From Verrucomicrobiota bacterium (GTDB lineage: Bacteria; Auribacterota; JABMQX01; JAFGEW01), in the NCBI GenBank assembly GCA_016931415.1, contig JAFGEW010000031.1, forward strand, positions 62,001-126,000: a stretch of 64,000 nt of DNA, in the 5' to 3' direction. Below, in pieces: positions 5,538 to 25,710 of this stretch. The translations under genes were made by a program, and so were the position numbers. Under the pieces are notes generated by a model. It was not told the origin of the DNA. It searched no databases and saw nothing but the letters and a program-made list of their open reading frames with translations. Each line of letters opens with the position of its first letter. The first letter of the stretch is position 1.

Positions 5538-5556
5538 CGCACCCTCCTTGCTCCGG

Positions 5557-5955: not shown

Positions 5956-6023
5956 GGTCCTCAGTCCGGTCTCGTGCGTCGCTATGCTACAGAACGCCGG
6001 CCGGGGTGGCAAGAGGTTCCCGA

Positions 6024-8153: not shown

Positions 8154-8154
8154 G

Positions 8155-9291
8155 TCAGTCCTCCTCCTCGCGCAGGAACTCGTCAAGGCCGAACTTGAGG
8201 CCGAGCTCAGCGGTCGCACGCTCGTCGCCGCTCGCCGACCGGGCCCGTTCGATCATCTTGCGCACAAAGAGGCCGCGGATCGTCGACTCGTCGCTCAGCC
8301 GCCGAACAAGCTCCCCGTCAACGAGGCGTGTCTCGTCGACGACCTCGACGTGGAAGAACGCGCTCTGGAGCCGGTCGGCGATGCGCTCGATGTTCGGCAC
8401 GAAGTCCGCGGGGCCCGTGAGCCGAACGCGGAGCAGGAGCGTGTCGCCGCGACGCTCAAGCAGACGCTCAGCGATCTCGGCATCGGATGCGGCGGGCTGC
8501 TCGCTGAGATCGAGGGCGACCTCGCGCAGCTCGCGCGTGTGACACTCGCGCTTCTCGATCTGGACACCGCCCTCGTCGACCTCGGCAATCACCGCGTAGC
8601 GCGGACCGCATTCGCCGAAGTCCTTGCCCTCGGTTGAGCCCGAATACACGGCGAGCACACCGCCCTCGCGGTGCTCGGCGTACTGGTGGTAATGGCCGAG
8701 CATGATGTAATGCATACCGCTGGCAGCGATCTGCTCCGGTCTGAGCGGCAACTCGTCGTCCTTGAGCTCCCAAGTCGGGTTGGCCCAGACGGCCGCATGC
8801 AGCATGGCGACGTGGAGGCCCGGCTCGTCAGTGTGCTGGAACGTCGCCAGCGTGTCGACGCCACGCGACAGGTCGAGGGCGGCGCTATAGATGTGCACGG
8901 TCTCGCCGCGCACGCTGAGCTGCACGACCTTGTCCACCTGGGGGGAGGTGACCAGCGTCACACCGGGGAACTTCTCGCGGCGATAGACCGAGTCGGTGTA
9001 GCCGATGCCGTCGTGGTTGCCGGGAACGAGAACCACGGGGATCGGCCGCTCGGCTAGACGGCGGAGCTGATCGCGCACGAAGCCGACTGCGCGCTCGGAT
9101 GGCGCGTGGTGCTCGAAGACGTCGCCTGGGATCGCTACGAGGTCGACGGCGTTGGCCGGTTCGAGCGCCATATCGACGATGCGGGCGAACGTCCTGCGAA
9201 AGTCTTCCGCGCGACGCTCGGCCAACTCGCCCAGCCAAGCCGGGTGGTAGCCAAGATGGCAGTCGGCGAAGTGAAGTATCCTGACAGCCAT
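8155..9291 (-). CDS. DNA repair exonuclease, SbcD/Mre11/YhaO-like
   Basis: A calcineurin-like phosphoesterase of 378 residues with the full metal-binding set: FADCHLGY, IPGDVFEHH, VPGNHDG, and LGHYHQYAEH. Mre11/SbcD enzymes use two Mn ions to cut DNA ends and hairpins with the ATP-driven SbcC/Rad50 partner, here encoded one base downstream. A capping domain and a C-terminal tail of about 60 residues (to LGLKFGLDEFLREEE) resemble YhaO more than E. coli SbcD. ATG 9291 follows a GGGG-containing ribosome binding site; the longer frame upstream has no family similarity. Confidence 0.9.
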   Translation of the reverse strand: MAVRILHFADCHLGYHPAWLGELAERRAEDFRRTFARIVDMALEPANAVDLVAIPGDVFEHHAPSERAVGFVRDQLRRLAERPIPVVLVPGNHDGIGYTDSVYRREKFPGVTLVTSPQVDKVVQLSVRGETVHIYSAALDLSRGVDTLATFQHTDEPGLHVAMLHAAVWANPTWELKDDELPLRPEQIAASGMHYIMLGHYHQYAEHREGGVLAVYSGSTEGKDFGECGPRYAVIAEVDEGGVQIEKRECHTRELREVALDLSEQPAASDAEIAERLLERRGDTLLLRVRLTGPADFVPNIERIADRLQSAFFHVEVVDETRLVDGELVRRLSDESTIRGLFVRKMIERARSASGDERATAELGLKFGLDEFLREEED

Positions 9292-9435
9292 GCCCCGCAA
9301 TCCTTGTTCACATCCAGGACAACATGATAGCCGCCCGAGATATCGCAACGCAACCGGGTTGTGGATTGACACGGGAACGAGACTGAGCGATGATGAGTAT
9401 CTGAGAACACGAGGCCTGAAGCAGCAGGTTCATCT

Positions 9436-10197
9436 TTGCGCCAGACGCCGCTGATCGGGATTACTTGCAGGACACGTATCGTCTCTCCAGGAGTGGAGGG
9501 TGCCAACTCCGCCACGGCGTTCCTCGGTCAGCGTGAGCTGGCGGAGTGCATTGTCCAAGCGGGCGGGAACCCGGTGCTGCTCCCTTCCGTCGAAGGCGAG
9601 AGGTACGCTCGGGAAATCGTCGCGGAACTGGACGGCGTGCTGGTCGGCGGCGGCGACGACGGCGATCCGGCGGGGTGCGGCGAGGAACCGCATCCGAAGT
9701 TGGGATTCGTAGATGACGTGAAGTCGCGGTTCGAGGCGGTGCTCCTTCGGGCGGCGCTCGAAGCGGGGGTGCCGGTATTCGGCATCTGCGGCGGGCATCA
9801 GATACTCAACGTGGCCTGCGGCGGCACACTGCACCAGGACATCGGCGCGTGCACAGGCTCGACGATGCTACATGCCGTGGCCCAGACCGAACCGCGGCCG
9901 TGCCACAGCGTCAAGGTTGTCGCAGGCAGCCGGCTGCACGCGATCGTGGGCGAGACGAAGCTGCGCGTCAACAGCACGCATCACCAAGCGGTAGACAAGG
10001 TCGGCGATGGGCTGGCCGTAACGGCCCGGGCGCCCGACGAGACCGTCGAGGCGCTCGAGCGGCCGGAGGCGCCCTTCGTGCTGAGCGTGCAGTGGCACCC
10101 GGAACGGCTCATCGAGCGCGACTCGGCGTCGCGGCGGCTTTTCGAGGCATTCGTCGCAGCATGTGTAGACAACGCGGGAGCGAGGAGGGAATCCTGA
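9436..10197 (+). CDS. Peptidase C26 family (gamma-glutamyl-GABA hydrolase-like) amidase
   Basis: A class I glutamine-amidotransferase-fold hydrolase of 253 residues. The nucleophile elbow is GICGGHQ. A VNSTHHQAV segment and the VQWHPE His-Glu pair complete the Cys-His-Glu triad. This is the pattern of PuuD-type hydrolases that cleave gamma-glutamyl amides. The likely start is TTG 9436, since no ATG or GTG fits the conserved PLIGITC beginning. It ends 3 bases before a large vWA protein that itself has a GATase-like domain, so the two may be co-transcribed. The substrate is not evident; no putrescine pathway genes are nearby. Confidence 0.85.
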   Translation: MRQTPLIGITCRTRIVSPGVEGANSATAFLGQRELAECIVQAGGNPVLLPSVEGERYAREIVAELDGVLVGGGDDGDPAGCGEEPHPKLGFVDDVKSRFEAVLLRAALEAGVPVFGICGGHQILNVACGGTLHQDIGACTGSTMLHAVAQTEPRPCHSVKVVAGSRLHAIVGETKLRVNSTHHQAVDKVGDGLAVTARAPDETVEALERPEAPFVLSVQWHPERLIERDSASRRLFEAFVAACVDNAGARRES

Positions 10198-10200
10198 CGC

Positions 10201-12465
10201 ATGCGCTTTGAGGCGGTTTTCCCGCTCTGGTCCATCCTTGCCGCGGTCGCGGCGTATTTGGTCGTCGTGTTGCTCGTGTCGCGCCACCCGGTACTGGGCA
10301 AGCGCCGGGGGCTGCGCATGCTGCTGCTCGCGCTTCGCTACGTCGTGATCGCCGTCGTAGCGCTCTGCCTGCTCAATCCAAACGTCGTGCTGCCGCGCGA
10401 ATCGGGCGCCGGCCGGCGCGTCGTGATCGTCGTGGACGATTCACGCAGCACAGCGCTGCCCGCCGAGGGCCGCGCATCGACGCGCGGCACCCGCCTTGAT
10501 GAGATGAAAGCAGCCATCGCGGACTCGAAGCTCCTCGACCAGTTCAGCGACGACGTGGACGTCCAGATCGTCGCCGTGGGCCGCGAGCCAAGGGCAGTCA
10601 AGTCGCTCGACGAGGTCGCCGGCCTCGAGCCGGCCACCCACCTGCTCGCCGCCATCGACAAAACCATCCGCGACGCGCCCCAGGCGCGGACCGAGGCCGT
10701 GGTCGTCTTCAGCGACGGCATCGATACCACGCAGGACAGCATCGAGAGGACCGTCCTGCTGCTCAACCGCTACGCGGTACCCGTCTACACCTACGGTCTC
10801 GGCAGCCCCGAGCCGCAGCGCGACGTCGCCGTCGAGAACATCGCCGTGAAGAAGAACGTCATCGCCCAGACCGAGGTCGAGGTTGACGTCTTTCTCCGGC
10901 AGAATCTGTGCGACGGCCGCACGGTGCCGATCACGATCACCCAGGACGAGCGCGTCGTGGCCACCTCGGGCGTCACCTTTACGCGCGACACCGAGAAGGT
11001 CAGCGTCCGTTTCACGCCCGACCAGGAAGGACTGCTCACCTACAACGTCAACGTGGGCGAGCAAGACGGCGAGCTGCTCATCGAGAACAACCATGTTCCG
11101 TTCACGGTCAACGCGGCCAAGAAGGTCATTCGCGTGCTCTACATGGAAGGCACGATGTACAAGCGCGACGACCGTGAGCTGTGGGAGTACCAGTACCTCG
11201 AACACGCACTCAAGGGCGACGGCGCGATCGAAGTCGAATCGATGTTCCGCGACAAGAACATCGACGCGTTCCGCGCGGGCGTTTCGTGGGTCCGCGATCC
11301 GATCAACGGCTTCCCGACAAGCAAGCGCGACCTGTTCGAGTATGACGTGATCATCTCGAGCGACATCGACATCGTCTACTTCAGCGATGAGCAGCTCGAG
11401 TGGCTCGTCGACTTCGTCGGCAAGCACGGCGGCGGCTACGTCATGGTGGGTGGCTGGACGAGCTTCGGCAGCGGCGGCTACGATGAGTCTATCATCGACA
11501 AGATGCTGCCCGTCGACATGCGCGGCCGCATGGACGGCTATATCGAGGGTGCGATGTTCAAGTGGTCCTACACGCCCGAGGGCCGCAGCCATCCGATCTT
11601 GCAGATCGACGGGAAACAGAACGCCGCCGCGCTGGATAGTGTCCCCTACTTCCGGGGCTGCAGCCGTGTGATCCGCGCCAAGCCGGCGGCAACAACGCTC
11701 GCCGAGCACCCGACCGCGCGCAGCGAGTTCGGCGCCATGCCGTTGCTCGCCGTGCAGGAGTTCGGCAAGGGGCGTTCAATGGCGTTCGTACCCGACACGA
11801 CGGCCGGCTGGGGCGCCGAGTTCGAGGACAACTGGGGCATCCAGGACAACCGCCACTTCCAGGCGTTCTGGATCAACGCCGTGCGCTGGCTCGCCGAGCA
11901 CCGGCTCCAGATGCCGGTCAAGAACCTTGTGGTCGAGACGCCGCGCGCCTCGTTTGGCGCCGGTGAGGACGTGCCGATCACGGCCACCGTGCTCGACGAG
12001 AATTACGAGCCGACCGCCGCGGCCGAGGTCGTTGCCGTCATCGCCAGGCCCGACGGTGAGACGACAATGCTGCGCCTCGCGCCCGACCACACCGAGACGG
12101 GCAAGTACAGCGCGCTCTACTCGCCCGCCGACGAAGGCGACTACACGGTCGCCGCATCGGCGACGCTCAACTCCGCCAAGCTCGACGAGGACGCGCTGAG
12201 GTTCCGGGCCACCTCACCCAACGTCGAGTTCAAGGAGTACCGCCGTAACGACGCTCTGCTCGAGCGGCTCGCCTCGCTCACCGGCGGCGCGGTGCTCGAC
12301 GACGCCGCGCTCAAAAGCCTCCCCGGGCGCATCACGGCGGCCGTCGCTTTGCACAAACAAGCCGCGCTCACCAAGCCGATCTGGGACCGCCTGTGGCTGC
12401 TCGGCGCACTGCTGCTCTGCCTCTTCGTCGAGTGGAGCGTGCGTCGCAGATCAGGTCTGGCGTAG
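10201..12465 (+). CDS. Membrane vWA protein with GATase-like domain (754 aa)
   Basis: Two N-terminal membrane segments (about 8-27 and 38-60) are followed by a vWA domain with an intact MIDAS (Asp79, Ser81, Ser83; later VVFSDGID). A beta-sandwich region comes next, then a class I glutamine-amidotransferase-like Rossmann region (DVIISSDID ... FVGKHGGGYVMVGGWTSFGS). A second beta domain and a C-terminal membrane helix (LWLLGALLLCLFVEW) end the protein. The bulk should face the periplasm. It is built like the products at 14892 and 17175, so the three look like diverged copies. Likely role: metal-dependent protein-protein contacts in an envelope complex; no enzyme activity can be assigned. Confidence 0.75.
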   Translation: MRFEAVFPLWSILAAVAAYLVVVLLVSRHPVLGKRRGLRMLLLALRYVVIAVVALCLLNPNVVLPRESGAGRRVVIVVDDSRSTALPAEGRASTRGTRLDEMKAAIADSKLLDQFSDDVDVQIVAVGREPRAVKSLDEVAGLEPATHLLAAIDKTIRDAPQARTEAVVVFSDGIDTTQDSIERTVLLLNRYAVPVYTYGLGSPEPQRDVAVENIAVKKNVIAQTEVEVDVFLRQNLCDGRTVPITITQDERVVATSGVTFTRDTEKVSVRFTPDQEGLLTYNVNVGEQDGELLIENNHVPFTVNAAKKVIRVLYMEGTMYKRDDRELWEYQYLEHALKGDGAIEVESMFRDKNIDAFRAGVSWVRDPINGFPTSKRDLFEYDVIISSDIDIVYFSDEQLEWLVDFVGKHGGGYVMVGGWTSFGSGGYDESIIDKMLPVDMRGRMDGYIEGAMFKWSYTPEGRSHPILQIDGKQNAAALDSVPYFRGCSRVIRAKPAATTLAEHPTARSEFGAMPLLAVQEFGKGRSMAFVPDTTAGWGAEFEDNWGIQDNRHFQAFWINAVRWLAEHRLQMPVKNLVVETPRASFGAGEDVPITATVLDENYEPTAAAEVVAVIARPDGETTMLRLAPDHTETGKYSALYSPADEGDYTVAASATLNSAKLDEDALRFRATSPNVEFKEYRRNDALLERLASLTGGAVLDDAALKSLPGRITAAVALHKQAALTKPIWDRLWLLGALLLCLFVEWSVRRRSGLA

Positions 12466-12467
12466 GG

Positions 12468-13529
12468 CTACTTCTTGGCCTCGGTCACGTCGAACTCGAT
12501 GGGGAACTCGAGCGTGCCGTCGTAAAGCGTCTTGATCTCGGGATCTCGGTAGGCGGTGTCGATGTCGGGCGTGAGAACCAGCGTCCCCTTATGCTTCCCA
12601 TCGGGCAGGTCGACCCGCGCAAATGAGGGGGCGGTTACCCATTCCGGACGAGAAGGGCCCCAAGTCCAACCTGCCCGCTGCAAGAGAAGGGAATTGGGAA
12701 GAGGGATCTCCAGGCCGGTCTCGTCCCGATAGGCAAACCTGGACGCGACGTTCTCCGGCAGTGGCGAGTAGAAGAGCTGGTGACACGACGGGCTCATCTC
12801 TATGCGCACGTCCCCGACGGGCCAGCTTGCCCTGGATGGAGAGCACGACTCGAACCGGAAGGCTGCTTTCATGCGCTTCTCGAGCGAGGGGTTTGACACG
12901 AGGCGGATAGGTTCGGCCTCGTCCGGATTGACAACGTGGATTGTGAGGGGGATCTCAGACTCGCATCGGTGCAAGGCATCCTTTCGGTCAGCGCTGTGCT
13001 CAGGCACCAGGACGTGCGAGTACCGGATCGAGGCCATGTGGACACCCGGCGTATTGGTCTGTCGCACCGAGCCATCGGCCAGGCAGCCGTGGCGGATCTC
13101 ATGGCACCGGGGCTGATAGTCCCTATAGGCGGCGTTCTCTGAACCTGTCAGCTCCTCGCCCCCGGCGTAGAAGTATTCGGTACCGAGGAGCCGCGTCCGC
13201 CGAAGCTCAAACGGGAGCGGGTAGCGAGTCGCGATGTAGACAGGGCGGTCGCTCCCGTACGCGTCCCGCACGGAGACCTCGGGCATCATGAGAACCTTGA
13301 GAATGCGGTTGCCGAGTTCGGGAGACACGGACTGCCGATCAAGAAGCCAGGCAAGTCTCTGCGCCACATGTTGATCGCGCCCCACTGCATACCGAGCCAT
13401 GAGCGATTGGGCACAGCGGACACGCCACCACGGGGGGAACGCGAGGGCACATGCGAGAACCACCGCGACGAGCAACAGCACAACCACCACCCCCGCGATC
13501 CGCCTGCGCATCGACATCCTCCGGTTCAT
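12468..13529 (-). CDS. Hypothetical membrane-anchored protein
   Basis: A 353-residue protein: a basic start, one membrane segment at about residues 12-32 (VVVVLLLVAVVLACALAF), then an extracytoplasmic part rich in beta-type stretches with several Cys (for example CHEIRHGC, RFESCSPS). ATG 13529 follows AAGGAACAG; the frame extends further but without a start signal. It is convergent with the vWA gene, 2 bases apart, and interrupts an otherwise plus-strand locus. I recognise no domain. Its strand and position suggest a later insertion into the locus. Confidence 0.6.
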   Translation of the reverse strand: MNRRMSMRRRIAGVVVVLLLVAVVLACALAFPPWWRVRCAQSLMARYAVGRDQHVAQRLAWLLDRQSVSPELGNRILKVLMMPEVSVRDAYGSDRPVYIATRYPLPFELRRTRLLGTEYFYAGGEELTGSENAAYRDYQPRCHEIRHGCLADGSVRQTNTPGVHMASIRYSHVLVPEHSADRKDALHRCESEIPLTIHVVNPDEAEPIRLVSNPSLEKRMKAAFRFESCSPSRASWPVGDVRIEMSPSCHQLFYSPLPENVASRFAYRDETGLEIPLPNSLLLQRAGWTWGPSRPEWVTAPSFARVDLPDGKHKGTLVLTPDIDTAYRDPEIKTLYDGTLEFPIEFDVTEAKK

Positions 13530-13974
13530 CGTCTGTTCCTTCCAGGGCGTGAGGTCAGCCCAACGACCCGCTGCGGCACCAGTCACTCCGACGCATTGAT
13601 GGTACTCGAGGGGACGGGCTGAGACAAGGGATATAGGTGAACGACTGGCGGTAGGTGGTTGGGAGGCAGGCGGTCACACCACCGGGGGTCGCACGGCCAT
13701 GAGGCCATCCCATCGGACAAAAACCGCGTCTTGCGACTGGACGGTGGGTGTGCCTCGTGGTATCCTAATTGTTCGGGCTCTGGCGGCCGTCCGGCCAGGG
13801 TCAAAGTGCCCGGAAACCGGGAACTTGAGGACGCTCGGGCAGTCTAACAACTAGGTGACAACCCTCGCCGCAGGCAACGGGCAGCGCGGCCGAGGCCGTT
13901 TCATGCTTCAGAGTGGTGTTTCCCCGGAACCTGTGGTGCCGGGGGCGAGTCATACGAGTTATCGGCGGGAGCGT
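13530..13974. other. Gene-free stretch upstream of the DUF58 operon
   Basis: This 445-base divergent region lies between the minus-strand hypothetical gene and the DUF58 gene. A frame open upstream of 13975 (from GTG 13855) encodes no conserved DUF58 sequence, so I treat it as non-coding. A TATCCT element near 13760 could be a -10 box, but no -35 at 16-18 bases supports it. No trace of a MoxR ATPase gene, the usual upstream neighbour of DUF58 genes, is present. Confidence 0.4.
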
Positions 13975-14895
13975 ATGGTCAAAGCATCGGATCGCACGGA
14001 CAAGACGAAGTTCCTTGACCCGGAAGTGCTGCAGACCATCTCAGGGATGGAGCTCAAGGCGCGGCTGGTGGTCGAGGGGTTTATCTCGGGTCTTCACAAG
14101 AGCCCGTACCAGGGCTTCAGCGTGGAGTTCGCCGAGCACCGCCAGTACACGCCCGGCGACGAGCTACGCCACATCGACTGGCGCGTGTTCGGCAAGTCGG
14201 ATCGGTTCTACATCAAGCTCTACGAGGAAGACACAAACCTCAAGTGCTACGTGCTGCTCGACGCGAGCGGCTCGATGGCCTACGGCTCGAACAGTCACAT
14301 CACGAAGCTCTGGTACGGGGCGAACCTCACGGCGGCGCTCACCCAACTCATGCTTCAGCAGCTCGACTCGGTGGGGCTGCTGCTGTTCGACGACGAGATT
14401 CGGCGCTACATCCCGCCGCGGTCGAACCCGAAGCACCGCAGGATCATCTTCGACGAGCTCGAGAAGCTCCAGCCGGGCAAGCGCACACGGGTCTCGCACA
14501 TCTTCCACGACTTCGCTGAGCGCATCCGGCGCCGCGGGCTCATCGTGGTCATTTCCGACCTCTTTGACGACCCGGACGCGGTGCTCACGAGCCTCCAGCA
14601 CTTCCGCCATAAGAAGCACGAGGTGATCGTGTTCCATACGCTCGATCCGTACGAGCTGACGTTCCCCTTTGAGCGGCTCACACTGTTCCGCGACCTGGAG
14701 GGCAACATCCCGCCGCTCATGACCGAGCCGCATGTGCTCAAGCGCCGCTACCTGGAGAAGATGGAGGCATTCCGCGCCCAACTCAAACGCGGCTGCCGCG
14801 AGAACTCGATCGACTACTTCGACATCAACACGGCCGAGAACTTCGGCCGCGCGCTCACCCGCTATCTAGCCATGCGCCAGAGGAGGCGGTCATGA
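13975..14895 (+). CDS. DUF58 domain protein (BatB-like partner)
   Basis: A 306-residue DUF58 protein. The signature HRQYTPGDELRHIDWRVFG (about 56-73) is followed by a vWA core with a MIDAS at DASGSM (Asp96) and VISDLFDD. DUF58 proteins normally work with MoxR AAA ATPases and the Bat proteins in cell-envelope assembly or stress functions. ATG 13975 has GGGAG 4 bases upstream. The stop overlaps the next start (ATGA at 14892), so the two are coupled. It leads a run of at least four tightly packed genes. Confidence 0.9.
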   Translation: MVKASDRTDKTKFLDPEVLQTISGMELKARLVVEGFISGLHKSPYQGFSVEFAEHRQYTPGDELRHIDWRVFGKSDRFYIKLYEEDTNLKCYVLLDASGSMAYGSNSHITKLWYGANLTAALTQLMLQQLDSVGLLLFDDEIRRYIPPRSNPKHRRIIFDELEKLQPGKRTRVSHIFHDFAERIRRRGLIVVISDLFDDPDAVLTSLQHFRHKKHEVIVFHTLDPYELTFPFERLTLFRDLEGNIPPLMTEPHVLKRRYLEKMEAFRAQLKRGCRENSIDYFDINTAENFGRALTRYLAMRQRRRS

Positions 14896-17168
14896 TCGCG
14901 CCACTGCAGATCGCGATCGCGTTCATCAATCCGCTGTTGCTGACGCTCCTGGCGCTCGGGTCGATCCCGATCATCATCCACCTGCTGTACCGGCGCCGTT
15001 TCCGCACGGTGTGGTGGGGAGCGATGGAGTTCCTCCTGTTGTCGGATAAGGAGACGGCGAAGCGGTTGCGGATCCTGCAGATCCTGCTCCTGATCACGCG
15101 GGTGGCCATTGTGCTGTTCATCGTCGGGGCGCTCGCGCGGCCGCTGCTTACGGGGGCGTTCTTCGGCGGGGTGCTCGGGCAGAACCGCTCGACGGCGGCC
15201 GTCGTGCTCGACAATTCCTACAGCATGGGCCAACAGCAAGCGAACACGACGCTGCTCGAGCGCGCCAAGGACGCGGGCGAAGGCATCGCCTCGACGTTCC
15301 GGAAAGGTGACTCGCTCACGCTGCTCACCGTGGGGCCGAAGCCGGCGCCTGTAAGCGAGGCGGTTGGCGATCCAGAGGTGCTCCGGCGGCAGGCGCGGGC
15401 CGTCCCGCTCTCGTCGGGCGGCACGGACATGATCGCGGCGATCAGCACGGCGTTGACCGAGATGAAGAAGACGGAAAGCACCCAGCGCGAGCTCTTCATT
15501 ATCACCGACTGTCGCCAGGAGGGGTGGCGCGTCGAGGACACGACTGGCTGGCAACGCATCAACCGGCTTATCGAGCAGTTCGAGCAGCGCCCGAAGATCT
15601 TCATTATCGACGTGTCGAACCCGGGGACATACGAGAACTCCTTCATCGAGTCGATCAGTCTGCCGAGCGCGCCGCCATCGGTCAACCGCGGCTATTCGGT
15701 CGAGTGCTCGATCCGCACCCACAGCACTGAGCCGCTCGCGCCGCCGTCGGTGACCCTCTACCTTGACAGCGACGAGCGGGCCGCAGGCCAGACTCAGGGC
15801 ACCCCGTTCGAGGACGGCGTCTCGACAGCCAAGTTCGTCTTCCGCCCGAGCGAGCCGGGGTGGCATTGGGGCAAGGTAGTCATCGGACCGGACTCGCTCG
15901 ATCCGGACAACGTGCGTTACTTCGTCTACGAGGTCCGAGACAACCTTGACGTGCTTGCGCTCTCGGGCTCGTCGTCCCCCGAGACAATGTCGGCCTCATG
16001 GTTTGCCCAGCTCGCCTTGGCGCCGGACAAGAACTTCGAGACGGGCGACGGCGATTCGCGGCCGTCGACTTCGAACATCGTCTCGCCGACCATAGCGTCG
16101 CTGTCGCGCATGCTCGAGTTCGACCTTGGCGGGTACCGCGCCGTGTTCCTGACCGACACGGACCAGTTGCCCGACCACGTCGCCGACGGGCTGCGCAGCT
16201 ACGTCTATAGCGGCGGGGCGCTCGTCGTCATGCTCGACGACGCGATCGACGTCGAGAGCTACGCACGGCTGGCCGATCCCGAGCGGGGCGAGCCGCTGCT
16301 GCCGGCCCGCGCCGAGCGCTTCGTGGGTAAGGCGATTGACTTTGCAGCCGAGGACGACTTGCCCGAAGGGATCCACCTCGGTCTGCTTGAGTATGCCCAC
16401 CCGGTCGTCGCGCCGTTCGAGGATGAGAAGGACGGCAACCTCCACGCGCCGGCGTTCTACGGCTACATCAAGACGACGGTCGATCCGGATGACCCGAACG
16501 TGCGCGTGCTCATTTGGTTCGATAACGGCGATCCGTTCCTCATCGAGCGCCGCCTCGGCCGCGGGGTCGTGCTCATGCTCACGGGCGGCGGCGACCTGCG
16601 CTACTCGGACCTGCCGCTCATGCCCGTCTACCTGCCGCTCATGCATCGCATCACCTACTGGCTGGCACGGCGTGGGACGGCGGCACACGAGCTCATCCCC
16701 GGCGAGCCGATCCGCTACCCCGTCTCGGCGCGCGACAGCGCCCGCGAGCTCGTGCTCGACCGGCCCAGCGGCGCCCAGGAGCGGGTCCGCCCCGTGCTTG
16801 CCGGTATTCCGGGTGACGAGGTTGGATCGAGGTTCCCTACAATCGTCTACGACAAGACCGATCCCGCTGGTATCTACCGGCTCACCGCCGAAGCCGCCGA
16901 TACGGCCAGCGTGCTCGAGCCCGCATTCGAGACCCGGTTCTGCGTGAACGTCGACACGCGCGAGAGCGACCTGACCCCCGTGTCGCCCAAGATGCTTCTG
17001 GCCTTGTTCAAGGCGACGAAGGCCGAGTACATCAGGGCCGACGAGGATGTCATCAACAAGATCAAGACGAGCCGGCGCGGCCGCGAGATCTGGCGCTTCC
17101 TGGCGGTGGCCGTGTGCCTGTTGCTCATGACGGAATCCGTGCTCGCGCACGAGATCGATAGGGCCTAG
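14892..17168 (+). CDS. BatA-type membrane vWA protein (758 aa)
   Basis: The N-terminus is a BatA-type domain: membrane helix 11-32, the LLYRRRFRTVWWGAMEFLLL motif region, and a second helix at about 62-85. A vWA domain has MIDAS residues Asp107, Ser109 and Ser111 (LDNSYSM). A CARDB-like beta region, a GATase-like segment (YRAVFLTDTDQLPDHVADGL) and a C-terminal membrane helix (about 733-752) follow. It overlaps the DUF58 gene by 4 bases and is followed 6 bases later by another vWA gene. Likely function: envelope complex together with its neighbours. Confidence 0.85.
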   Translation: MIAPLQIAIAFINPLLLTLLALGSIPIIIHLLYRRRFRTVWWGAMEFLLLSDKETAKRLRILQILLLITRVAIVLFIVGALARPLLTGAFFGGVLGQNRSTAAVVLDNSYSMGQQQANTTLLERAKDAGEGIASTFRKGDSLTLLTVGPKPAPVSEAVGDPEVLRRQARAVPLSSGGTDMIAAISTALTEMKKTESTQRELFIITDCRQEGWRVEDTTGWQRINRLIEQFEQRPKIFIIDVSNPGTYENSFIESISLPSAPPSVNRGYSVECSIRTHSTEPLAPPSVTLYLDSDERAAGQTQGTPFEDGVSTAKFVFRPSEPGWHWGKVVIGPDSLDPDNVRYFVYEVRDNLDVLALSGSSSPETMSASWFAQLALAPDKNFETGDGDSRPSTSNIVSPTIASLSRMLEFDLGGYRAVFLTDTDQLPDHVADGLRSYVYSGGALVVMLDDAIDVESYARLADPERGEPLLPARAERFVGKAIDFAAEDDLPEGIHLGLLEYAHPVVAPFEDEKDGNLHAPAFYGYIKTTVDPDDPNVRVLIWFDNGDPFLIERRLGRGVVLMLTGGGDLRYSDLPLMPVYLPLMHRITYWLARRGTAAHELIPGEPIRYPVSARDSARELVLDRPSGAQERVRPVLAGIPGDEVGSRFPTIVYDKTDPAGIYRLTAEAADTASVLEPAFETRFCVNVDTRESDLTPVSPKMLLALFKATKAEYIRADEDVINKIKTSRRGREIWRFLAVAVCLLLMTESVLAHEIDRA

Positions 17169-17174
17169 CGACCG

Positions 17175-19595
17175 ATGACGCCACTGCTTCTGAGCACCAT
17201 GATCGACGCCGAGCGCAAGCTCGTGTTCAGCACACGCCTGCCGCTCTGGCTCGTCGCAACGATCCTCGGCGGCACGGCGCTGTTCGTAACGTTTCTGTAC
17301 GTGCGCGACCTCCGCACCAAACGCACGCCGGGCCGGTGGGCGCTCATGGTCCTGCGCCTGCTCCTGGTGCTGTGCATGGCCTACATCTTACTCGAGCCGA
17401 CGCTGGTCGACACGCGCCGGTACCGCGAGGAATCGACCGTCGTCGTGCTCATCGACAGCTCGCAGAGCAGCAAGCTCGCCGACGTGCTGCGGCGGACCGA
17501 GCTGCGTCTTTCAATCGCCCGGCTCGCGGGCCTGCTCAACACGGAGCAGCTCGAGCAGCTCGACAAGGGGGCGTCATTCGAGGCCATCGTGACGCCCAAG
17601 CAGGAGGCGCAGATCGACAAGGTGACCCGCATCGAGCAGATCAAGTACCTGCTCGGGAGCGAGAACGGCCTGATCGAGGCGTTCCGCAACGAGGGGCTTG
17701 AGATCGATCTCCTGACGTTTTCGAGCGCCGTGAGCGCCGTCAAGATCGAGGCCGGCCGCTCGATCGAGGACCTCAATCTCGTCGACACAGGGGAGACAGG
17801 CCGAGCGACGGACCTGAGCCTCGCCCTCAGCATGGTGCGCAAGCTCGAACAGAAGAAACGCATCGCCGGCATCGTCTTGCTCAGCGACGGCGATGCGAAC
17901 ATCGGACGCGACCCGATCGAGGAGGCGCGTCTGATCAGTTCCAAGGATATCCCCGTCTACCCGGTCGGACTGGGCAATCCTGACGAGCCGTGTGACATCG
18001 TGCTCGAGACCGTCAAGTGCAAGAAGGCCGTCTACGTCAACGATACCGTCATCGTCAAAGCAGATCTTGCCTCGTCGGGCTACGAGAAGAAGGAGGTGCG
18101 CGTCGCCTTGCGAGCAGGCGACGAAACGCTTGCCGAGGAGACCGTGACGCTCCACGCCCAGCCGGGCAAGGCGCAGGTCGACCTCAAGTTCGAGCCCAAG
18201 CAAACGGGGCTGATGCAGTGCATCGTCGAGGTGGCGCCGCTCGACGACGAAGTGCGGGTCGACAACAACGGGAAGCGCTTCGAAGTCGAGGTCATCAAGG
18301 AGAAGCGCCGGGTGCTGCTCGTCGAGCAGTACCCGCGCTGGGAATGGCGTTTCATCAAGAATGCCGTCGGGCGCGATCCGGACTTCGATCTCACGATGGT
18401 GCTGTTCCACAGCAACGAGCGGCCGGCGCGCGGCGAGCAGTACCTGCCCGACTACCCGAAGCGTGAACGTGACCTGTACGAATACGACATCATCATGTTC
18501 GGCGACGTGGCGAGCGACGAGTTCAGCGCGCGCCAGCTCGAGATGACTCGAGATTTTGTCGAAAAGATGGGCCGGCCACTTGTCATGATCTCCGGCCCGA
18601 ACCACGCACCGTACGGGTTCGAGGGGACGCCGATCGAAGACCTCCTGCCCGTGGTGCTCAGGAGCGGTGATTCGCGCGCCGCCAAGGGCATCTATGATGA
18701 ACGCGGTTTCAGCCTCGAGATGACGGCCGCCGGATGGAAGCACCCGATCCTCACACTGGCCGACGGCGACGAGAACGACCGGGTCTGGGCCGAGATGCCG
18801 CCGTCGTACTGGTGTGCCGACGTCGAGCGTGCCAAGGCTGGGGCCACAGCACTCGCCGTGCACCCGCGCGAGCAGAACCAGTACGGCAAGCTGCCCCTCG
18901 TAGTGATCCAGCGCTACGGCGCGGGCAAGGTGCTCATGCTCAACATCGACAGCTCATGGCGGTGGCGCTACGAGCATGGCGACGTCTACCACTACCGGTT
19001 CTGGGGCAACATCCTGCGCTGGCTCATCGCCGCCCCGCTCGAGGGCGAGAGTAAGTACGTGCGTATCTCGACGGACAAGGAGGCCTATCGCCAGAGCGAA
19101 GTCGTCACCGTCACGGCGCGTGTACAGGATGCCGAGTTCGCTCCGTACACGGGCGGCAGCGTATTCGTCGAGGTGACGGATCCGTTCGCCGGCGTCGAGC
19201 GCGTCCAGCTCGAGTTGCGCGATCCGGGCCTCGGCCTCTACGAGGGCCGGTTCACCGTCGGGACGGGCGGCAGTTGGCGGCTTCGGTCGATCGTCTCCGA
19301 TCTCGGAGCCGATTGGAGCCAGTCCGAACTCAAGATCGAGGTGGCGTCCGAGGAGCTCGAAGCGCGCAGCCTGCGAATGCGCCGCGATGTGCTTGCCGAC
19401 ATGGCAAACATCACGGGCGGCCGGTTCCACATGCTCGATACGGCGTCGGACATCCCGGGCGAGATTCGCAAGCTCAATGCTGAAAACACGACGAAGACCG
19501 GCCACGAGCTCTGGGACACCTTCATCGTGATTCTCATCTTCTCGGCCTTCATCACCGGCGAGTGGCTGCTCCGGAAACGGAAGGGGTACGTCTAA
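17175..19595 (+). CDS. Membrane vWA protein with GATase-like domain (806 aa)
   Basis: Two N-terminal membrane segments (about 22-43 and 55-74) are followed by a vWA domain with MIDAS Asp94, Ser96 and Ser98 (IDSSQSS) and VLLSDGDANIG. A GATase-like region (EYDIIMFGDVASDEFSARQL; VMISGPNHAPYG) and beta domains come next, and a final membrane helix (TFIVILIFSAFITGEWLL) precedes a basic tail. Order and length match the product at 10201, so they are likely paralogues. The stop overlaps the next ATG (TAATG), showing coupling to the coiled-coil protein. Confidence 0.8.
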   Translation: MTPLLLSTMIDAERKLVFSTRLPLWLVATILGGTALFVTFLYVRDLRTKRTPGRWALMVLRLLLVLCMAYILLEPTLVDTRRYREESTVVVLIDSSQSSKLADVLRRTELRLSIARLAGLLNTEQLEQLDKGASFEAIVTPKQEAQIDKVTRIEQIKYLLGSENGLIEAFRNEGLEIDLLTFSSAVSAVKIEAGRSIEDLNLVDTGETGRATDLSLALSMVRKLEQKKRIAGIVLLSDGDANIGRDPIEEARLISSKDIPVYPVGLGNPDEPCDIVLETVKCKKAVYVNDTVIVKADLASSGYEKKEVRVALRAGDETLAEETVTLHAQPGKAQVDLKFEPKQTGLMQCIVEVAPLDDEVRVDNNGKRFEVEVIKEKRRVLLVEQYPRWEWRFIKNAVGRDPDFDLTMVLFHSNERPARGEQYLPDYPKRERDLYEYDIIMFGDVASDEFSARQLEMTRDFVEKMGRPLVMISGPNHAPYGFEGTPIEDLLPVVLRSGDSRAAKGIYDERGFSLEMTAAGWKHPILTLADGDENDRVWAEMPPSYWCADVERAKAGATALAVHPREQNQYGKLPLVVIQRYGAGKVLMLNIDSSWRWRYEHGDVYHYRFWGNILRWLIAAPLEGESKYVRISTDKEAYRQSEVVTVTARVQDAEFAPYTGGSVFVEVTDPFAGVERVQLELRDPGLGLYEGRFTVGTGGSWRLRSIVSDLGADWSQSELKIEVASEELEARSLRMRRDVLADMANITGGRFHMLDTASDIPGEIRKLNAENTTKTGHELWDTFIVILIFSAFITGEWLLRKRKGYV

Positions 19596-22500
19596 TGGAT
19601 ACGTCACTCGGGACATTGGGAAGCGGCGTCCCGCGCGAGCTCCAGCGCAAGTTCGCCCAAGCGCGGGTGCGCATCCGCACCATGAGCGTGCTCAAGGGCC
19701 TGGCGCTTGTCGTATTCATCACGCTTGCGGCGTTCGCCGTCATCGTCCCGATCGATTACCTGCTCTGGTTCGGCACACCGTTGCGCGTGCTCGTGTTTGC
19801 CGCCACGGTCTGTGCGCTCGTCGTGTGCCTGGTCCTCAAGCTCGTCTTGCCGTTGCTGCGCCGTTACACGGCGCGTCAGATCGCGCTGTCGGTCGAGGAC
19901 CGCCATCCGCAGCTTGGCGATATTGTCGTAAGCACTGTCGAGCTGACCGAGATGCGCGCCGAGGGCAACTCGGCTACGTCCGCCCAGCTCGTTGAGGCCT
20001 TGGCGCAGGAAACACTCGGCCGCACGCGCGACGTCGACTTTCGTTCCGTGGCGCCATTCGCCGCCGTGCGTTGGGCCCTGTTCCTCGCAATGACCTTCGT
20101 CATCATCGTCGGCGCCTACTGTGTCATCGACATGCCCGTCGTGCAGTCGGCATTCTCGCGGTTCCTCTATCCGACGGCCGACATTGCGCCGTACACGCAC
20201 ACGTCGATCGACGTCACGACGGGTTCGTGCACCGTGAAGCGCGGCGGCAGCCTCGATGTCCTTGCGGTCGTGTCGCGACGGGTGCCCTCTCGGGCGGTCA
20301 TTGTCTGGCGCACCGAGGGCCGCGACGGCAAGCGCGCCCGCGTCGGCCTTGACAAAGGGGAATTCCGCTACACATTCAAGAGCGTGCTCAGACCGACGAC
20401 CTACCGTATCGTCGCCGGCGACGCGCGGTCGCCCTGGTACACGATCACGCCGGTAGATCCGCCGTCCATCGTCGACACGGACGTTACCCTCGACTACCCC
20501 GACTACACGCACCGGAAGAGCGAGCTCGCGGTCTCAAGCGGCGACGTCCAGGTGCTCCGGGGGACGCGTGTGACCGTCACGGCCACGGCGAGCAAGCCTG
20601 TCGCGAGCGCTTGGGCGACCTTCGAGACCATGGCAACGACGGGCGGGGAAACCTCTGCGGAGCTGCTCGAATCACCTACCGAGACCATGGAGATACCCGT
20701 CAACGGCATCGCCGTCGGCCCACTCGTGTTCGACGTGACCGTGCCGATGACCTACCAGATCCACCTGCGCGATGGGCACGGTTTCGAAAACACGCCGACG
20801 AGACACCTCGTCAAGCCCGAGCCGGACACAACGCCGACGATCGACATCGTCTTGCCGACGGGTACGACCGAGCGCACCATCGAGGCTGCGGTCCCTGTGC
20901 GTTTCTTCGTACGTGACGACTACGGGTTGACCGAGCTTCGCATCGTCTACCACGCCGCATCCGCCATGCCCGCCGAAGAAAAAGACCGGGTCGCCTCCGA
21001 GGAAGTCGACGGTAAGATTCTCCTCGACCTTGACCCGCCGGGCACGGCCGAGTTCGGGGCAGACTACTGGCTCGATCTCGCCTTGCTCGAGCTGGAACCA
21101 GGCATGCGGCTCGATTTCACCATCGAGGCGACCGACAACGACACGATTGACGGGCCGAAGACCGGACGCTCGAGCATGCGCACGATCATCATCGTCTCCG
21201 ACGAGAGCTCGGTGGCCCTTATCGAACGCGAGCAGCGCGAGTTGCTCAACCGGCTCATCAGGCTCCTCTCCCGGCAGAAGGACAACCTCAAGCTGACCGA
21301 GACGCTCGAGCGCGAGCAGGCCGCCGGCCGCCTTAGTCCCGAGCAGGAGCGCGCGCTCGAACAGGCCAAGCGCGAACAAGACGAGATCGCCAGTTCCACC
21401 CGCAAACTTGCCACGGACTTCGACCCGACAATTGAGCGCATGCAGCAAAACTCGCTCATCCATCCGCAGTCGGTTGTGCAGATGGAGGCGATGAAAGGGG
21501 CCCTTGGACAGATCGCCCAGGGCGACATGCCAGACGCTACCCAGCAGCTTCAGGACGCCCGCGAGGCTGGAACCTCCGAGGCGCGCGCTGAGAGGCTCGC
21601 TCAAGCCGAACAGACCGAGGAGCGCATTGTCACCGATCTCGAACGGGTTCAGAGCCAGTTCGAGCAGCTCATGCGCCAGCAGAAGCTGCTCGAGCTCGCC
21701 ACGGCCATCGGCCAGACGGCCAAAGAGCAGGACCGCAACATCCAGAATACCAAGGACGCCCGGAGCGGTCTCATGGGCAAGCGGCTCGAGGACCTCTCTG
21801 AGGAGGACCGGCGGCGCCTCAAGCAGTTGGGTGAGAAGGAGAATCAACTCCGCAAGAAGGTCGAGGACCTGGAGAAGCAGCTCGAAGAGGCCCTGAGAGA
21901 CCTTGAGCGCAATCGCTCCGACGACGCCAAGGCCGTCGACGAAGCGCTAGACGACATGCGCAAGAGCGGCATCGGCGATTCCATGAAACAGGCCGAGGAG
22001 GACCTGCGGGCAAGCCAACTGAACAAGAGCCTCGGCCCTCAGAACAAGGCTTCCGAGGATCTCTGGCGGCTCTCTAAGCGCCTCGAGCAGGCACATAAAA
22101 AGAAGTTGGGCGGCGAGTTCCAGAACACCGAGCAGGAGATGAAGGACCAGATCTCGGAACTGGATCGGCTCATCGCATTCGAAGAGGCCATCATTGCCGC
22201 GACCGAGGCGCTTCCCACGGGCGAGGGTGCACTTGACGGTCGCGACGTGATTGCGGAAATGATCGTACGGTTCGGGCTGGTCGAGGATGAACAACGCCGC
22301 ACTTACGAACGCGCCCACGGATTCTCGAACAAGCTGGCCGACATGTTCTCGCAGCTCATCATCTTCGGCGTCGACCCGGTCACGCCGATGCGGGCGGCCG
22401 TCAACTCGATGGGCGACGCGAAAGAGCAGCTGTGCCAGATCCGGCGCGACGCGGCGCTCCATGACGAGAGACGCGCCCTCGAGGCGCTGAAGGTGGCCCG

Positions 22501-23137
22501 CGACCAGCTTGGCGAGGCGCTCGCCAAGATGGAGATGGACGCGCAGATGCAGCAGCTCATGGACCAGATCGACCGACTGAGCGAGATCATCGAGAAGCAG
22601 CGCAAGATTAACGAGGACACCAAGGCGACCGATATCCAGCGCCCGCCGACCGAGGACCTGAGTGCCGCGTTCCGGCGCCTCATCGAGCGGCTCGGCAACC
22701 GCCAGGGCCGACTCGGCGGCGAGGTGACTGCGCTCGGCGTCATGCTCCAGGAGTTGCTGGAGATCGGCCAGAAGATGACCGACGTCTCCAAGATGCTTCA
22801 GGGCATGCGCACCGGCGGGGATGTGCAGGAGGAGCAGGAGAAGATCCTCGCAGCGCTCGAGCAGCTGTCACTTGACCTCCAGAAGAAGCTTCAACAGATG
22901 ATGGACGCTGCGGGAGCCGGCGTCAAGGCCGGCTCGACGGGCAGCGGCAATAGGAGCGGTCTCAACCTGCCGGCGCGCTTGACGAAGATCGAGCCCGGAT
23001 CGGCCGCTGAACTCCGGCTCCCGCCGCGGCTCCAGGAACGGCTCAGGCAGGCGTGGACGGAGAAGTACCCGGAGAGCTTCCGCGAGTTGCTCAGCCTGTA
23101 TTACAGACGGCTTTCCGATGAGGACAATCCGTACTAG
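19595..23137 (+). CDS. Large DUF4175-like membrane/coiled-coil protein (1180 aa)
   Basis: Two membrane segments at about 27-90 and one near 150-175 precede a long extracytoplasmic part. Ig-like beta regions (about 190-490) come first. Residues of about 540-1080 are almost wholly helical and charged, with strong heptad character (for example QLGEKENQLRKKVEDLEKQL), as in DUF4175-type proteins that follow BatA/DUF58 genes. ATG 19595 overlaps the previous stop by one base, so I reject the longer frame from 19562. Probably a structural rod spanning from the inner membrane into the envelope, working with the vWA proteins. Confidence 0.75.
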   Translation: MDTSLGTLGSGVPRELQRKFAQARVRIRTMSVLKGLALVVFITLAAFAVIVPIDYLLWFGTPLRVLVFAATVCALVVCLVLKLVLPLLRRYTARQIALSVEDRHPQLGDIVVSTVELTEMRAEGNSATSAQLVEALAQETLGRTRDVDFRSVAPFAAVRWALFLAMTFVIIVGAYCVIDMPVVQSAFSRFLYPTADIAPYTHTSIDVTTGSCTVKRGGSLDVLAVVSRRVPSRAVIVWRTEGRDGKRARVGLDKGEFRYTFKSVLRPTTYRIVAGDARSPWYTITPVDPPSIVDTDVTLDYPDYTHRKSELAVSSGDVQVLRGTRVTVTATASKPVASAWATFETMATTGGETSAELLESPTETMEIPVNGIAVGPLVFDVTVPMTYQIHLRDGHGFENTPTRHLVKPEPDTTPTIDIVLPTGTTERTIEAAVPVRFFVRDDYGLTELRIVYHAASAMPAEEKDRVASEEVDGKILLDLDPPGTAEFGADYWLDLALLELEPGMRLDFTIEATDNDTIDGPKTGRSSMRTIIIVSDESSVALIEREQRELLNRLIRLLSRQKDNLKLTETLEREQAAGRLSPEQERALEQAKREQDEIASSTRKLATDFDPTIERMQQNSLIHPQSVVQMEAMKGALGQIAQGDMPDATQQLQDAREAGTSEARAERLAQAEQTEERIVTDLERVQSQFEQLMRQQKLLELATAIGQTAKEQDRNIQNTKDARSGLMGKRLEDLSEEDRRRLKQLGEKENQLRKKVEDLEKQLEEALRDLERNRSDDAKAVDEALDDMRKSGIGDSMKQAEEDLRASQLNKSLGPQNKASEDLWRLSKRLEQAHKKKLGGEFQNTEQEMKDQISELDRLIAFEEAIIAATEALPTGEGALDGRDVIAEMIVRFGLVEDEQRRTYERAHGFSNKLADMFSQLIIFGVDPVTPMRAAVNSMGDAKEQLCQIRRDAALHDERRALEALKVARDQLGEALAKMEMDAQMQQLMDQIDRLSEIIEKQRKINEDTKATDIQRPPTEDLSAAFRRLIERLGNRQGRLGGEVTALGVMLQELLEIGQKMTDVSKMLQGMRTGGDVQEEQEKILAALEQLSLDLQKKLQQMMDAAGAGVKAGSTGSGNRSGLNLPARLTKIEPGSAAELRLPPRLQERLRQAWTEKYPESFRELLSLYYRRLSDEDNPY

Positions 23138-23146
23138 GATAACACG

Positions 23147-24166
23147 ATGACCAAACGGCGTCCCCAAGTCAGAATGGCGTGCCTGCTTCTGGCGCTCGCG
23201 TGCGCGATCACGCCGCTGGCGCCGCGACCGGCCAAGGCCGAGATTCCCAATGACGTGGTTCAGGCCGCCAAGAACGGTCTCGACTACCTCGCCCGCTCAC
23301 AGCGCGAGGACGGCTCGTGGAGCGGCAGCTACGGCCAAAGCCCCGGTGTGGTCGGCCTGTGCCTGCTCGCGTTTCTTGCCCACGGCGAGGTGCCGGGCCG
23401 CGGCCCGTACAAGGACACGATCGACAAAGCGATCAAGTTCCTGCTCGAGAACGCCAACGCCGAGACGGGAGTCATCTCGCGGCAAGGCGCGCAGCCGATG
23501 TACAATCACGGCTTCGCTACGCTGGCGCTCGCCGAGGTCTACGGCATGTCGCCCGATCCCGCGATCGAGCGCGTGTTGCGCAAGGCCGTCGACCTCATCG
23601 TGCGCACACAGAACAAGCGCGGCGGCTGGCGCTACCAGCCGATGCCGTACGACGACGACATCACGGTATCGGGCTGCCAGATGATCGCCCTGCGTGCCGC
23701 CGACAACGCCGGCATCAGCGTGCCGCGCAAGACGATTGAGAAGGGCACCGAGTACATCGAGTCGTGCTACAGCCAGGGCGGATTTGGCTATCAGCCCGGC
23801 AGCTCGCCGGGCGCGGCGCGCACGGGCATCGGCGTGCTCGTGCTGTCGCTTACGGGCAAGGAGGGCAGCGAGCAAGCCGCCAGGGGTGCCGAGTACATCC
23901 GGAACAACTTCCCACGCCCTGGGAGCAGCTACTTCTACTACACGACCTACTACTGCTCGCAGGCCATGTATCAGGTCGGCGGCTCGGCATGGAAGGAGTG
24001 GGACGAGAAGATGACCAAGCAACTGCTGGACATTCAGGTCAGGAGCGGCGGCGAACGCGGGAGCTGGCCCGAGACCGGCTCGGCGGCTGGACGCGACTAT
24101 GCCACCGCTATGGCGCTGCTGGCGCTCGAAGTCAAGTGGCGCTATCTACCCATCTACCAGCGCTGA
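23147..24166 (+). CDS. Exported prenyltransferase/squalene-oxidase repeat protein
   Basis: A 339-residue protein with a signal peptide (cleavage probably after KAEA-like PAKA, near residue 31) and several alpha/alpha-toroid repeats of the terpene-cyclase/prenyltransferase type. Typical cores are NGLDYLARSQREDGSWSGSY, GFATLALAEVYGM, VRTQNKRGGWRYQP and TAMALLALEVKWRYLP. The acidic DDDITVSGCQMIAL stretch lies where cyclases carry other motifs, but no clear DXDD acid of squalene-hopene cyclases is present, and the protein is exported. It is therefore more likely a binding toroid than a terpene cyclase. It is 9 bases behind the coiled-coil gene. Confidence 0.85.
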   Translation: MTKRRPQVRMACLLLALACAITPLAPRPAKAEIPNDVVQAAKNGLDYLARSQREDGSWSGSYGQSPGVVGLCLLAFLAHGEVPGRGPYKDTIDKAIKFLLENANAETGVISRQGAQPMYNHGFATLALAEVYGMSPDPAIERVLRKAVDLIVRTQNKRGGWRYQPMPYDDDITVSGCQMIALRAADNAGISVPRKTIEKGTEYIESCYSQGGFGYQPGSSPGAARTGIGVLVLSLTGKEGSEQAARGAEYIRNNFPRPGSSYFYYTTYYCSQAMYQVGGSAWKEWDEKMTKQLLDIQVRSGGERGSWPETGSAAGRDYATAMALLALEVKWRYLPIYQR

Positions 24167-24201
24167 CCGGGATGCGGGCGAACAAGATGAGGGAGAGACC
24201 A

Positions 24202-25710
24202 ATGTGGTCACGCTATTGCGGCAAAGCGAGGTTCGCCGGAATCCTCGCCGTGGCCCTCTGGGTGTTGTCGGCCTCGGCGCAATGGGCCTCCGCCCAGAAG
24301 CACACCAGCGGCAACCTCGAGGAGATCCCCGAGTCGAAACCGCTGCCACACGATGTGATCCACCTGACCAATGGCGACAAGATCTCGGGCACCATCGCCG
24401 GACTCGACGGCGACACGCTCCTGGTCCAGGCCAATCTGGTCGACGGCCCGGTCCGCGTGCCGTTCGAGCATGTCCGGCTCGTGCTGTTCCGCAGCGCGGA
24501 GAAGATCCCCGAGGCCCCGCACGACCGCCTCGTGTTCCCGAACGGCGACCGGCTCAGCGTCACGCTCACGAGCCTGGCCGAAGGCTCGCTGAAGGCCGCG
24601 ACAAGCGCCGGCGAGAACGTCTCGGTCAAGACCGACTGGCTCACCGGCATCATCTTCGAGCGCAAGCCGTACGCCGTCTATGAGAACGACTTCGAGGACG
24701 GCAAGCTCAAGGGGCTCAAGCCCGGCAACGGCCAGTGGGTCGTCGAGAACGGCCTGCTCAAGCAGACCCAACGCAACGCCTCATTCTCCACCGCGTCGAT
24801 CGAGATCGTCCAGGACGGCCGGTTCCAGTTCGACTGGGTCGCCGACCTCGTCGGCGGCAACGCGTACGGCTTCTACTTCTTTGCAGGCCACGACGATGCG
24901 GTTCACGGCGGCACCTCCTATCTCATCATGGTACAGGGCCAGAGCGTCTATCTCTATAAGGTGCAGAACGACAACCAGCAGTACTACGCGAACTACACCC
25001 TGCCCAAACGTGACGAGCGCGCGAAGTTCCGCCTTGACTACGATCCCGCCAACGGCCACATCATCCTGACCGTCGACGGCAAGAACGTGTTCCGCTACCG
25101 CGACCCGGCCCCGATCACCAGCGGCCGCTACGTCACCTTGCGTACCGACAACGTCGGCAGCTTCGATAACATCGCGATCACCCGCCTCGGCGGCGGCCGC
25201 ATCCTGCCGGACGAGGCCAAGGCGCGGGGCCGCGACATCATCTGTCTCGCCAACAACGACGAGGTCTCGGGCGAGGTGATCTCCATCGACGACGCGACCC
25301 TGCTCATGAAGACCGACTACGATGAGGACCCCGTCGACATCCAGCGCGACTACGTCTCGTCGCTGACTTTCTACCGTCAGGCGGCGCGGTCAACCGAGCC
25401 GGGCACGACCCGCATCGCGCTCGTGAACGGCGACACCCTCACCGGCAAGCTTATCAGCCTCGACGATGAGACGATCGTCGTCGAATCGCCCGTCGTTGGA
25501 CGGATCAGTCTCGCACGCGCCCTCGCACGCGAGCTGAGCATCGAAGACCATGAGGGCCGGGACGTCGGCGCGCTCGATGACCACAACGGGGCGAACGTTG
25601 CGGGCGTCGAGTTTGTCAATACCGACGCTGCCCACGTCATCCGCGGAGACAAGGATGGCGGCGCGGTCATCCTGAAGGGGGACGGGAGCCGTGTTCTGGT
25701 CATCGACTGA
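24202..25710 (+). CDS. Exported DUF1080-like protein with SLA1-like repeats
   Basis: A 502-residue secreted protein. I chose ATG 24202 because GAGGGAGAG lies just upstream; ATG 24172 is a poorer site. The signal peptide ends near WASAQ. Three short beta modules of the type TNGDKISGTIAGLDGDTLLV (about 50, 110 and 350, with a fourth near 415) flank a concanavalin/DUF1080-like beta-sandwich (about 155-335: YENDFEDGKLKGL ... FDNIAITRLGGG). Such domains bind or act on glycans, but no active site is evident. It probably belongs to the same transcript as the preceding toroid gene. Confidence 0.72.
   Translation: MWSRYCGKARFAGILAVALWVLSASAQWASAQKHTSGNLEEIPESKPLPHDVIHLTNGDKISGTIAGLDGDTLLVQANLVDGPVRVPFEHVRLVLFRSAEKIPEAPHDRLVFPNGDRLSVTLTSLAEGSLKAATSAGENVSVKTDWLTGIIFERKPYAVYENDFEDGKLKGLKPGNGQWVVENGLLKQTQRNASFSTASIEIVQDGRFQFDWVADLVGGNAYGFYFFAGHDDAVHGGTSYLIMVQGQSVYLYKVQNDNQQYYANYTLPKRDERAKFRLDYDPANGHIILTVDGKNVFRYRDPAPITSGRYVTLRTDNVGSFDNIAITRLGGGRILPDEAKARGRDIICLANNDEVSGEVISIDDATLLMKTDYDEDPVDIQRDYVSSLTFYRQAARSTEPGTTRIALVNGDTLTGKLISLDDETIVVESPVVGRISLARALARELSIEDHEGRDVGALDDHNGANVAGVEFVNTDAAHVIRGDKDGGAVILKGDGSRVLVID

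Follow-up and report, generated by a model that had tools for sequence, protein, structure and literature searches.

Genes of the operon and its flanks

The window, a stretch of 64,000 nucleotides (contig C31, positions 62001-126000), belongs to a draft genome of 4.06 Mb with 98.9% completeness and 4.5% contamination. Family assignment by Pfam and NCBIfam searches, combined with gene re-calling under a codon model, revealed one tight operon on the forward strand at 13975-25710. Its first gene encodes a soluble, vWA-like DUF58 protein of 306 aa (13975..14895; PF01882, 1.2e-42), which bears the motif DASGS and has no TM helix. The codon model most likely places the start of this gene at 13975 and not at 13855, a correction to the initial annotation, whose gene descriptions were otherwise almost all correct. 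The following gene encodes BatA2 (758 aa; 14892..17168), combining the BatA N-terminal double TM segment (PF07584, 6e-13), a vWA domain with a DNSYS MIDAS (PF13519, VWA_2, 5e-13) and a C-terminal TM segment. Downstream lie vWA3 (806 aa; 17175..19595), with two TM helices, a vWA domain, a GATase1_like domain (PF07090, 4.5e-7) and a C-terminal TM helix, and a rod of the DUF4175 family (1180 aa; 19595..23137; PF13779, 2.9e-10), in which three N-terminal TM helices precede a long, partly coiled-coil part. The operon closes with an exported alpha/alpha toroid of 339 aa (23147..24166; PF13243, squalene-hopene cyclase C-terminal domain, 1.1e-11) and a last exported protein, for which start codons are available at 24172 or 24202 and which ends at 25710. 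BatA2 starts 4 nt inside the DUF58 gene and the rod starts on the stop codon of vWA3; with 24172 as the start of the last gene, the spacing from DUF58 onwards ranges from -4 to +9 nt, with gaps of 5-9 nt where there is no overlap, so that a single transcript is likely.

The mostly coupled starts first described for the whole locus hold from DUF58 through the last gene but do not extend to vWA1 (754 aa; 10201..12465, forward strand; PF07090, 1.5e-13), a vWA/GATase1_like membrane protein that lies outside the operon. Between the two lies an opposing ORF of 372 codons with one N-terminal TM segment (12468..13586, reverse strand); 2 nt separate it from the stop of vWA1, and about 390 nt remain up to the DUF58 start. 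This ORF occupies the place of moxR in other genomes, and no homologues of it were found in 44 genomes of the same phylum. Its coding signal is weak; that of vWA1, BatA2, vWA3, rod and toroid is strong. Elsewhere in the window, two nuclease-like genes similar to SbcC/SbcD (Mre11/Rad50 type) are located on the reverse strand at 6024-9291, divergent from a Peptidase_C26 gene (9436-10197), and visual inspection of the translations at 36437-56735 identified a tightly ordered division and cell-wall (dcw) cluster that opens with an mraZ-like gene, continues with mur/fts-like genes and closes with ftsA- and ftsZ-like ones.

The DxSxS motif of the MIDAS is present in all four vWA-type proteins (vWA1, BatA2, vWA3 and DUF58), and an alignment with six rows, made up of relatives of vWA1 and vWA3, shows the MIDAS residues D, S, S, T and D to be invariant. 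The three large vWA proteins had been credited with a shared layout of vWA domain, GATase-like domain and C-terminal helix. The intact MIDAS is indeed found in all three, but a GATase1_like match was obtained for vWA1 and vWA3 and not for BatA2, and the C-terminal helix is supported in BatA2 and vWA3, whereas the corresponding segment of vWA1 falls below the Kyte-Doolittle cut. The expected nucleophile strand of the GATase-like part, as inspected by eye, appears to read VMISGPNHAP in vWA1 and VMVGGWTSFG in vWA3, without the Cys that an active class-I glutamine amidotransferase would carry in a GxCxG elbow. A sequence search of solved structures matched vWA3 to GATase1-like and vWA chains (3rht, 2gk3, 4cn8); its predicted structure was set aside (pTM 0.45, with whole-chain matches at query TM <0.2). 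Directly after its MIDAS, vWA3 carries a long helical insert (17472-17699, residues about 100-175) which its planctomycete relatives also have and vWA1 does not. NorD enters the MoxR pore with an extension of its own vWA domain. The vWA domain of vWA3, in contrast, is predicted to be periplasmic.

The toroid model (pLDDT 80, pTM 0.82) matches the folds of RabGGTase beta, squalene-hopene cyclase, GH76 mannanases and MmpH. The DxDD motif is absent from the toroid, and on this ground a squalene-hopene cyclase or class II terpene cyclase was rejected; Asp171 is the only invariant residue of the matching region across 35 toroids, and the N-terminus is signal-peptide-like. The last protein had been described as DUF1080-like; it produced no Pfam DUF1080 match and only weak Hfq/Sm-like ones, and contains several Sm/Hfq-like stretches flanking a lectin-like middle.

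MoxR genes and further copies in the genome

A tblastn search of window positions 9001-16000 with the genome's own seven MoxRs found neither a MoxR gene nor a relic (best E 0.13), which agrees with the earlier statement that no MoxR stands beside the operon and leaves no candidate relic in the gap before DUF58. Homology search across the genome yielded seven full MoxR genes and seven DUF58 genes, one of the latter matched in two pieces. The MoxR genes of contigs C27, C95, C112 and C123 adjoin a DUF58 gene and that of C83 has one several genes away; those of C35 and C74 have none. The C35 MoxR (5352-6440; PF07726, AAA_3, 214 bits) has an AAA_3 domain in which both Walker motifs, A and B, are present (the Walker A-type GVPGLAKT, and LLADEI), and lies in a neighborhood of riboflavin genes.

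The nearest relative, G001, belongs to the same class but to a different family, and is the sole other genome of the class compared (81% complete). On its contig C667 it encodes a DUF58 orthologue 70% identical to that of the window, and its relatives of the other window proteins include a vWA3 orthologue (47%), a rod (35%) and a last protein (33%). Upstream of the G001 DUF58 gene lies a divergent ORF, not moxR, and no MoxR relic was found before this gene. Elsewhere in G001, five genes are ordered as on C35 (riboflavin synthase-like, two unknowns, TPR/DUF1080-like and MoxR), with one extra gene between them on C35. As G001 shares this order and its DUF58 gene also has no adjacent moxR, the separation of moxR predates the split of the two families. 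This same match in gene order makes it unlikely that C35 is a contaminant contig.

In the trees, the C35 and G001 MoxRs form a clade (support 97) placed beside that of three Planctomycetota loci, L097, L122 and L127 (82, moderate), and the window vWA3 together with its G001 counterpart (99) stands beside this same clade (94). The proposal that the ATPase is encoded elsewhere is thus borne out by the seven MoxR genes and, among them, by the C35 copy, which has no DUF58 neighbor, groups beside the planctomycete operon MoxRs and conserves its neighborhood in G001. Counting against the pairing with C35, the DUF58 and BatA proteins of the window are placed without resolution and do not fall with the L097 clade. 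The pairing is also not forced, because the C35 and C74 MoxRs and the DUF58 proteins of the window and of the C83 contig end are all without partners.

This C83-end DUF58 gene (L025:7758-8642) is 48% identical to that of the window, has no moxR upstream and is cut off at the contig edge; it is possibly the start of a further split copy. Contig C27 bears a second copy in the order MoxR-DUF58-(231 aa)-BatA-rod, which shares 43% (DUF58), 26% (BatA) and 27% (rod) identity with the window operon and differs from it in having its own MoxR, in showing no toroid or vWA/GATase gene in the stretch read and in grouping with the operon of G018, a genome of the same phylum. A third, scattered set on contig C74 (L053:2389-6973, L023:8461-14142) comprises BatA-type and vWA genes and, several kb farther along, genes for a DUF4175 rod, a carbohydrate-binding protein and MoxR; no DUF58 was found on this contig.

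The three vWA genes had been taken as one conserved set, which does not hold: vWA1 represents another subfamily, is cut off by the opposing ORF and is probably the C27 copy's. The trees behind this placement are quick ones with long branches. They unite vWA1 with the vWA encoded in the G018 operon (95), and the MoxR, DUF58 and BatA encoded there with their C27 counterparts (94, 90 and 84). Because the stretch read on C27 contains no vWA/GATase gene, vWA1 is probably a displaced member of the C27 set, as far as these sequence relationships indicate. No vWA1-like second gene was found in the 81% complete G001.

Distribution of the operon in Planctomycetota and the phylum

Relatives of vWA3 (E<=1e-30) are present in 202 of 244 planctomycete-phylum genomes. 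We read 60 Planctomycetota loci drawn from the best-scoring vWA3 matches, so that the rates below describe loci of this kind and not all planctomycetes. A DUF58 gene was found in 42 of the 60; loci with a vWA-rod pair and no nearby DUF58 (L099, L107 and L110 among others) were excluded from the MoxR tally. In 41 of the 42, moxR lies directly upstream of DUF58; in the exception, L111, two genes intervene. BatA and vWA are the next genes after DUF58, likewise in 41 of 42. Further downstream, the rod is present in 32 and the toroid in 31 of the DUF58-bearing loci; in the other 11 no toroid was seen within the stretch read. The same families thus recur in the Planctomycetota operon (L050, L051, L073-L128) and in the window with little or no difference in order, moxR lying directly before DUF58 in the former and on another contig in the latter.

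Loci L097, L122 and L127 read MoxR-DUF58-BatA-vWA-rod-x-toroid-DUF1080-like and end like the window. Most planctomycete loci, unlike the window, include a TPR/PQQ gene and have the rod last, as in L050 and L051 (MoxR-DUF58-BatA-vWA-TPR/PQQ-toroid-rod, with the domains checked in L051). The MoxRs of these two loci have their best match in C35 (65-67%), and their DUF58 proteins in the window (52-53%). The window contains what defines the operon, namely DUF58, BatA-type vWA and vWA/GATase-like genes adjacent on the same strand with a DUF4175 rod and an exported toroid downstream, except for moxR directly upstream of DUF58, and was filed as a split variant instead of a standard member. Within the window's own phylum, MoxR stands in front in G006, G014, G018, G021 and G032. 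In G015, from another family of the phylum, a DUF58-BatA pair (L134:9849-10760) has no adjacent MoxR, which suggests that moxR was separated more than once.

The wide occurrence of this operon with moxR in front (41/42) speaks against the lineage-specific, undescribed machine proposed in the initial annotation. That proposal was to fall if the same gene order with moxR proved universal and characterized; we found it widespread, but found no characterization. Searches of the open-licence literature yielded no paper on the toroid operon, and the operon type is apparently uncharacterized, though widespread, as far as this literature shows.

Among known systems, the Bat operon (Bacteroides aerotolerance) encodes MoxR, DUF58, BatA, BatB and TPR proteins (PMC11834572). 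The window shares with it DUF58 and the BatA-type vWA with double-TM N-terminus, but its vWA proteins are twice as large and bear a GATase-like part, its DUF4175 rod and toroid are not found in Bat, and moxR is not adjacent. The window operon contains neither MoxR nor a TPR protein and is not assigned to Bat; a Bat-like set occurs on contig C123 of the same genome. NorQ/NorD and RavA/ViaA (PMC13036017, PMC10585395) likewise have a MoxR-type ATPase with a vWA-type partner in common with the window, but membrane vWA/GATase proteins, a rod and a toroid are not among their parts, and their clients are respiratory enzymes.

Proposed mechanism and rival explanations

We consider it likely that the window locus represents the planctomycete MoxR-DUF58-BatA-vWA/GATase-DUF4175-toroid operon in split form, its moxR now lying in the riboflavin-gene neighborhood on C35. 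Displacement of moxR is most likely, rather than its absence; loss was set aside as the main reading since a related MoxR is kept on C35 at a conserved position. From the sequence relationships, the C35 MoxR may still serve the window operon. In the translations of vWA1, BatA2 and vWA3, the loop joining the first TM helix to the second abounds in Arg and Lys. By the positive-inside rule these loops are cytosolic, which would leave the vWA domain and whatever follows it on the periplasmic side. With this predicted topology, the large domains of BatA2, vWA3 and the rod would be periplasmic, and the soluble DUF58 protein would be the vWA-type partner within reach of a cytosolic MoxR. MoxR hexamers and DUF58 might then remodel, in an ATP-driven manner, loops or tails on the cytosolic side of the membrane vWA/rod complex, and this could lead to assembly or reset of the exported toroid and last protein in envelope assembly or repair. 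Remodeling by MoxR/vWA pairs is established for NorQD, in which the MoxR-type NorQ acts on a linker in its vWA partner (PMC13036017). By analogy, a periplasmic assembly with the toroid and last protein may be the client to which remodeling is transmitted in the present system.

It is unlikely, though a real prospect, that the operon is served instead by the C27 or C74 MoxR, or by several shared ones, the C35 MoxR having its own client beside the TPR/DUF1080-like protein. The seven MoxR genes of the genome, the lack of an adjacent DUF58 at both C35 and C74 and the conserved TPR-protein neighbor of the C35 MoxR would fit such an arrangement. The C27 MoxR nevertheless looks taken, as it groups, together with its DUF58, with the G018 operon (94, 90), and G001 (81% complete) keeps the operon while no C27- or C74-type MoxR was found there. 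We deem it very improbable that the operon works without any MoxR, with DUF58 and the vWA proteins as a static scaffold and moxR lost as a partner: neither genome of the class has moxR beside the operon, but both keep a closely matching MoxR at a conserved position, and MoxR is adjacent in 41 of 42 planctomycete loci.

The toroid itself raises a further alternative, in which it would be a glycan- or lipid-acting enzyme; the operon would then chiefly serve to make the product of this enzyme, and the vWA proteins would be accessory. The fold matches (GH76 mannanases, MmpH, RabGGTase beta and squalene-hopene cyclases) and the invariance of Asp171 in 35 toroids are in line with an enzyme. The absence of DxDD, the lack of a toroid in the stretch read of 11 of 42 loci and the signal-peptide-like N-terminus, a feature unlike terpene cyclases and prenyltransferases, which are not known to be exported, make this improbable.

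Returning to the split operon with a displaced moxR, we tentatively envisage a periplasmic vWA/rod/toroid machine, unlike Bat in its parts and widespread in Planctomycetota, driven by cytosolic MoxR and DUF58. In the window's class the motor gene would have been uncoupled and moved to the riboflavin-gene neighborhood, and one motor could serve several machines. An apparent orphan system thereby becomes a testable case of a common, apparently uncharacterized operon, and the split in the window's class offers a natural test of how MoxRs pair with DUF58/vWA sets. Where a genome encodes seven MoxR paralogues, the absence of a neighboring partner gene says little. Given the 202 of 244 genomes with vWA3 relatives, understanding this machine would bear on the unusual envelope of planctomycetes.
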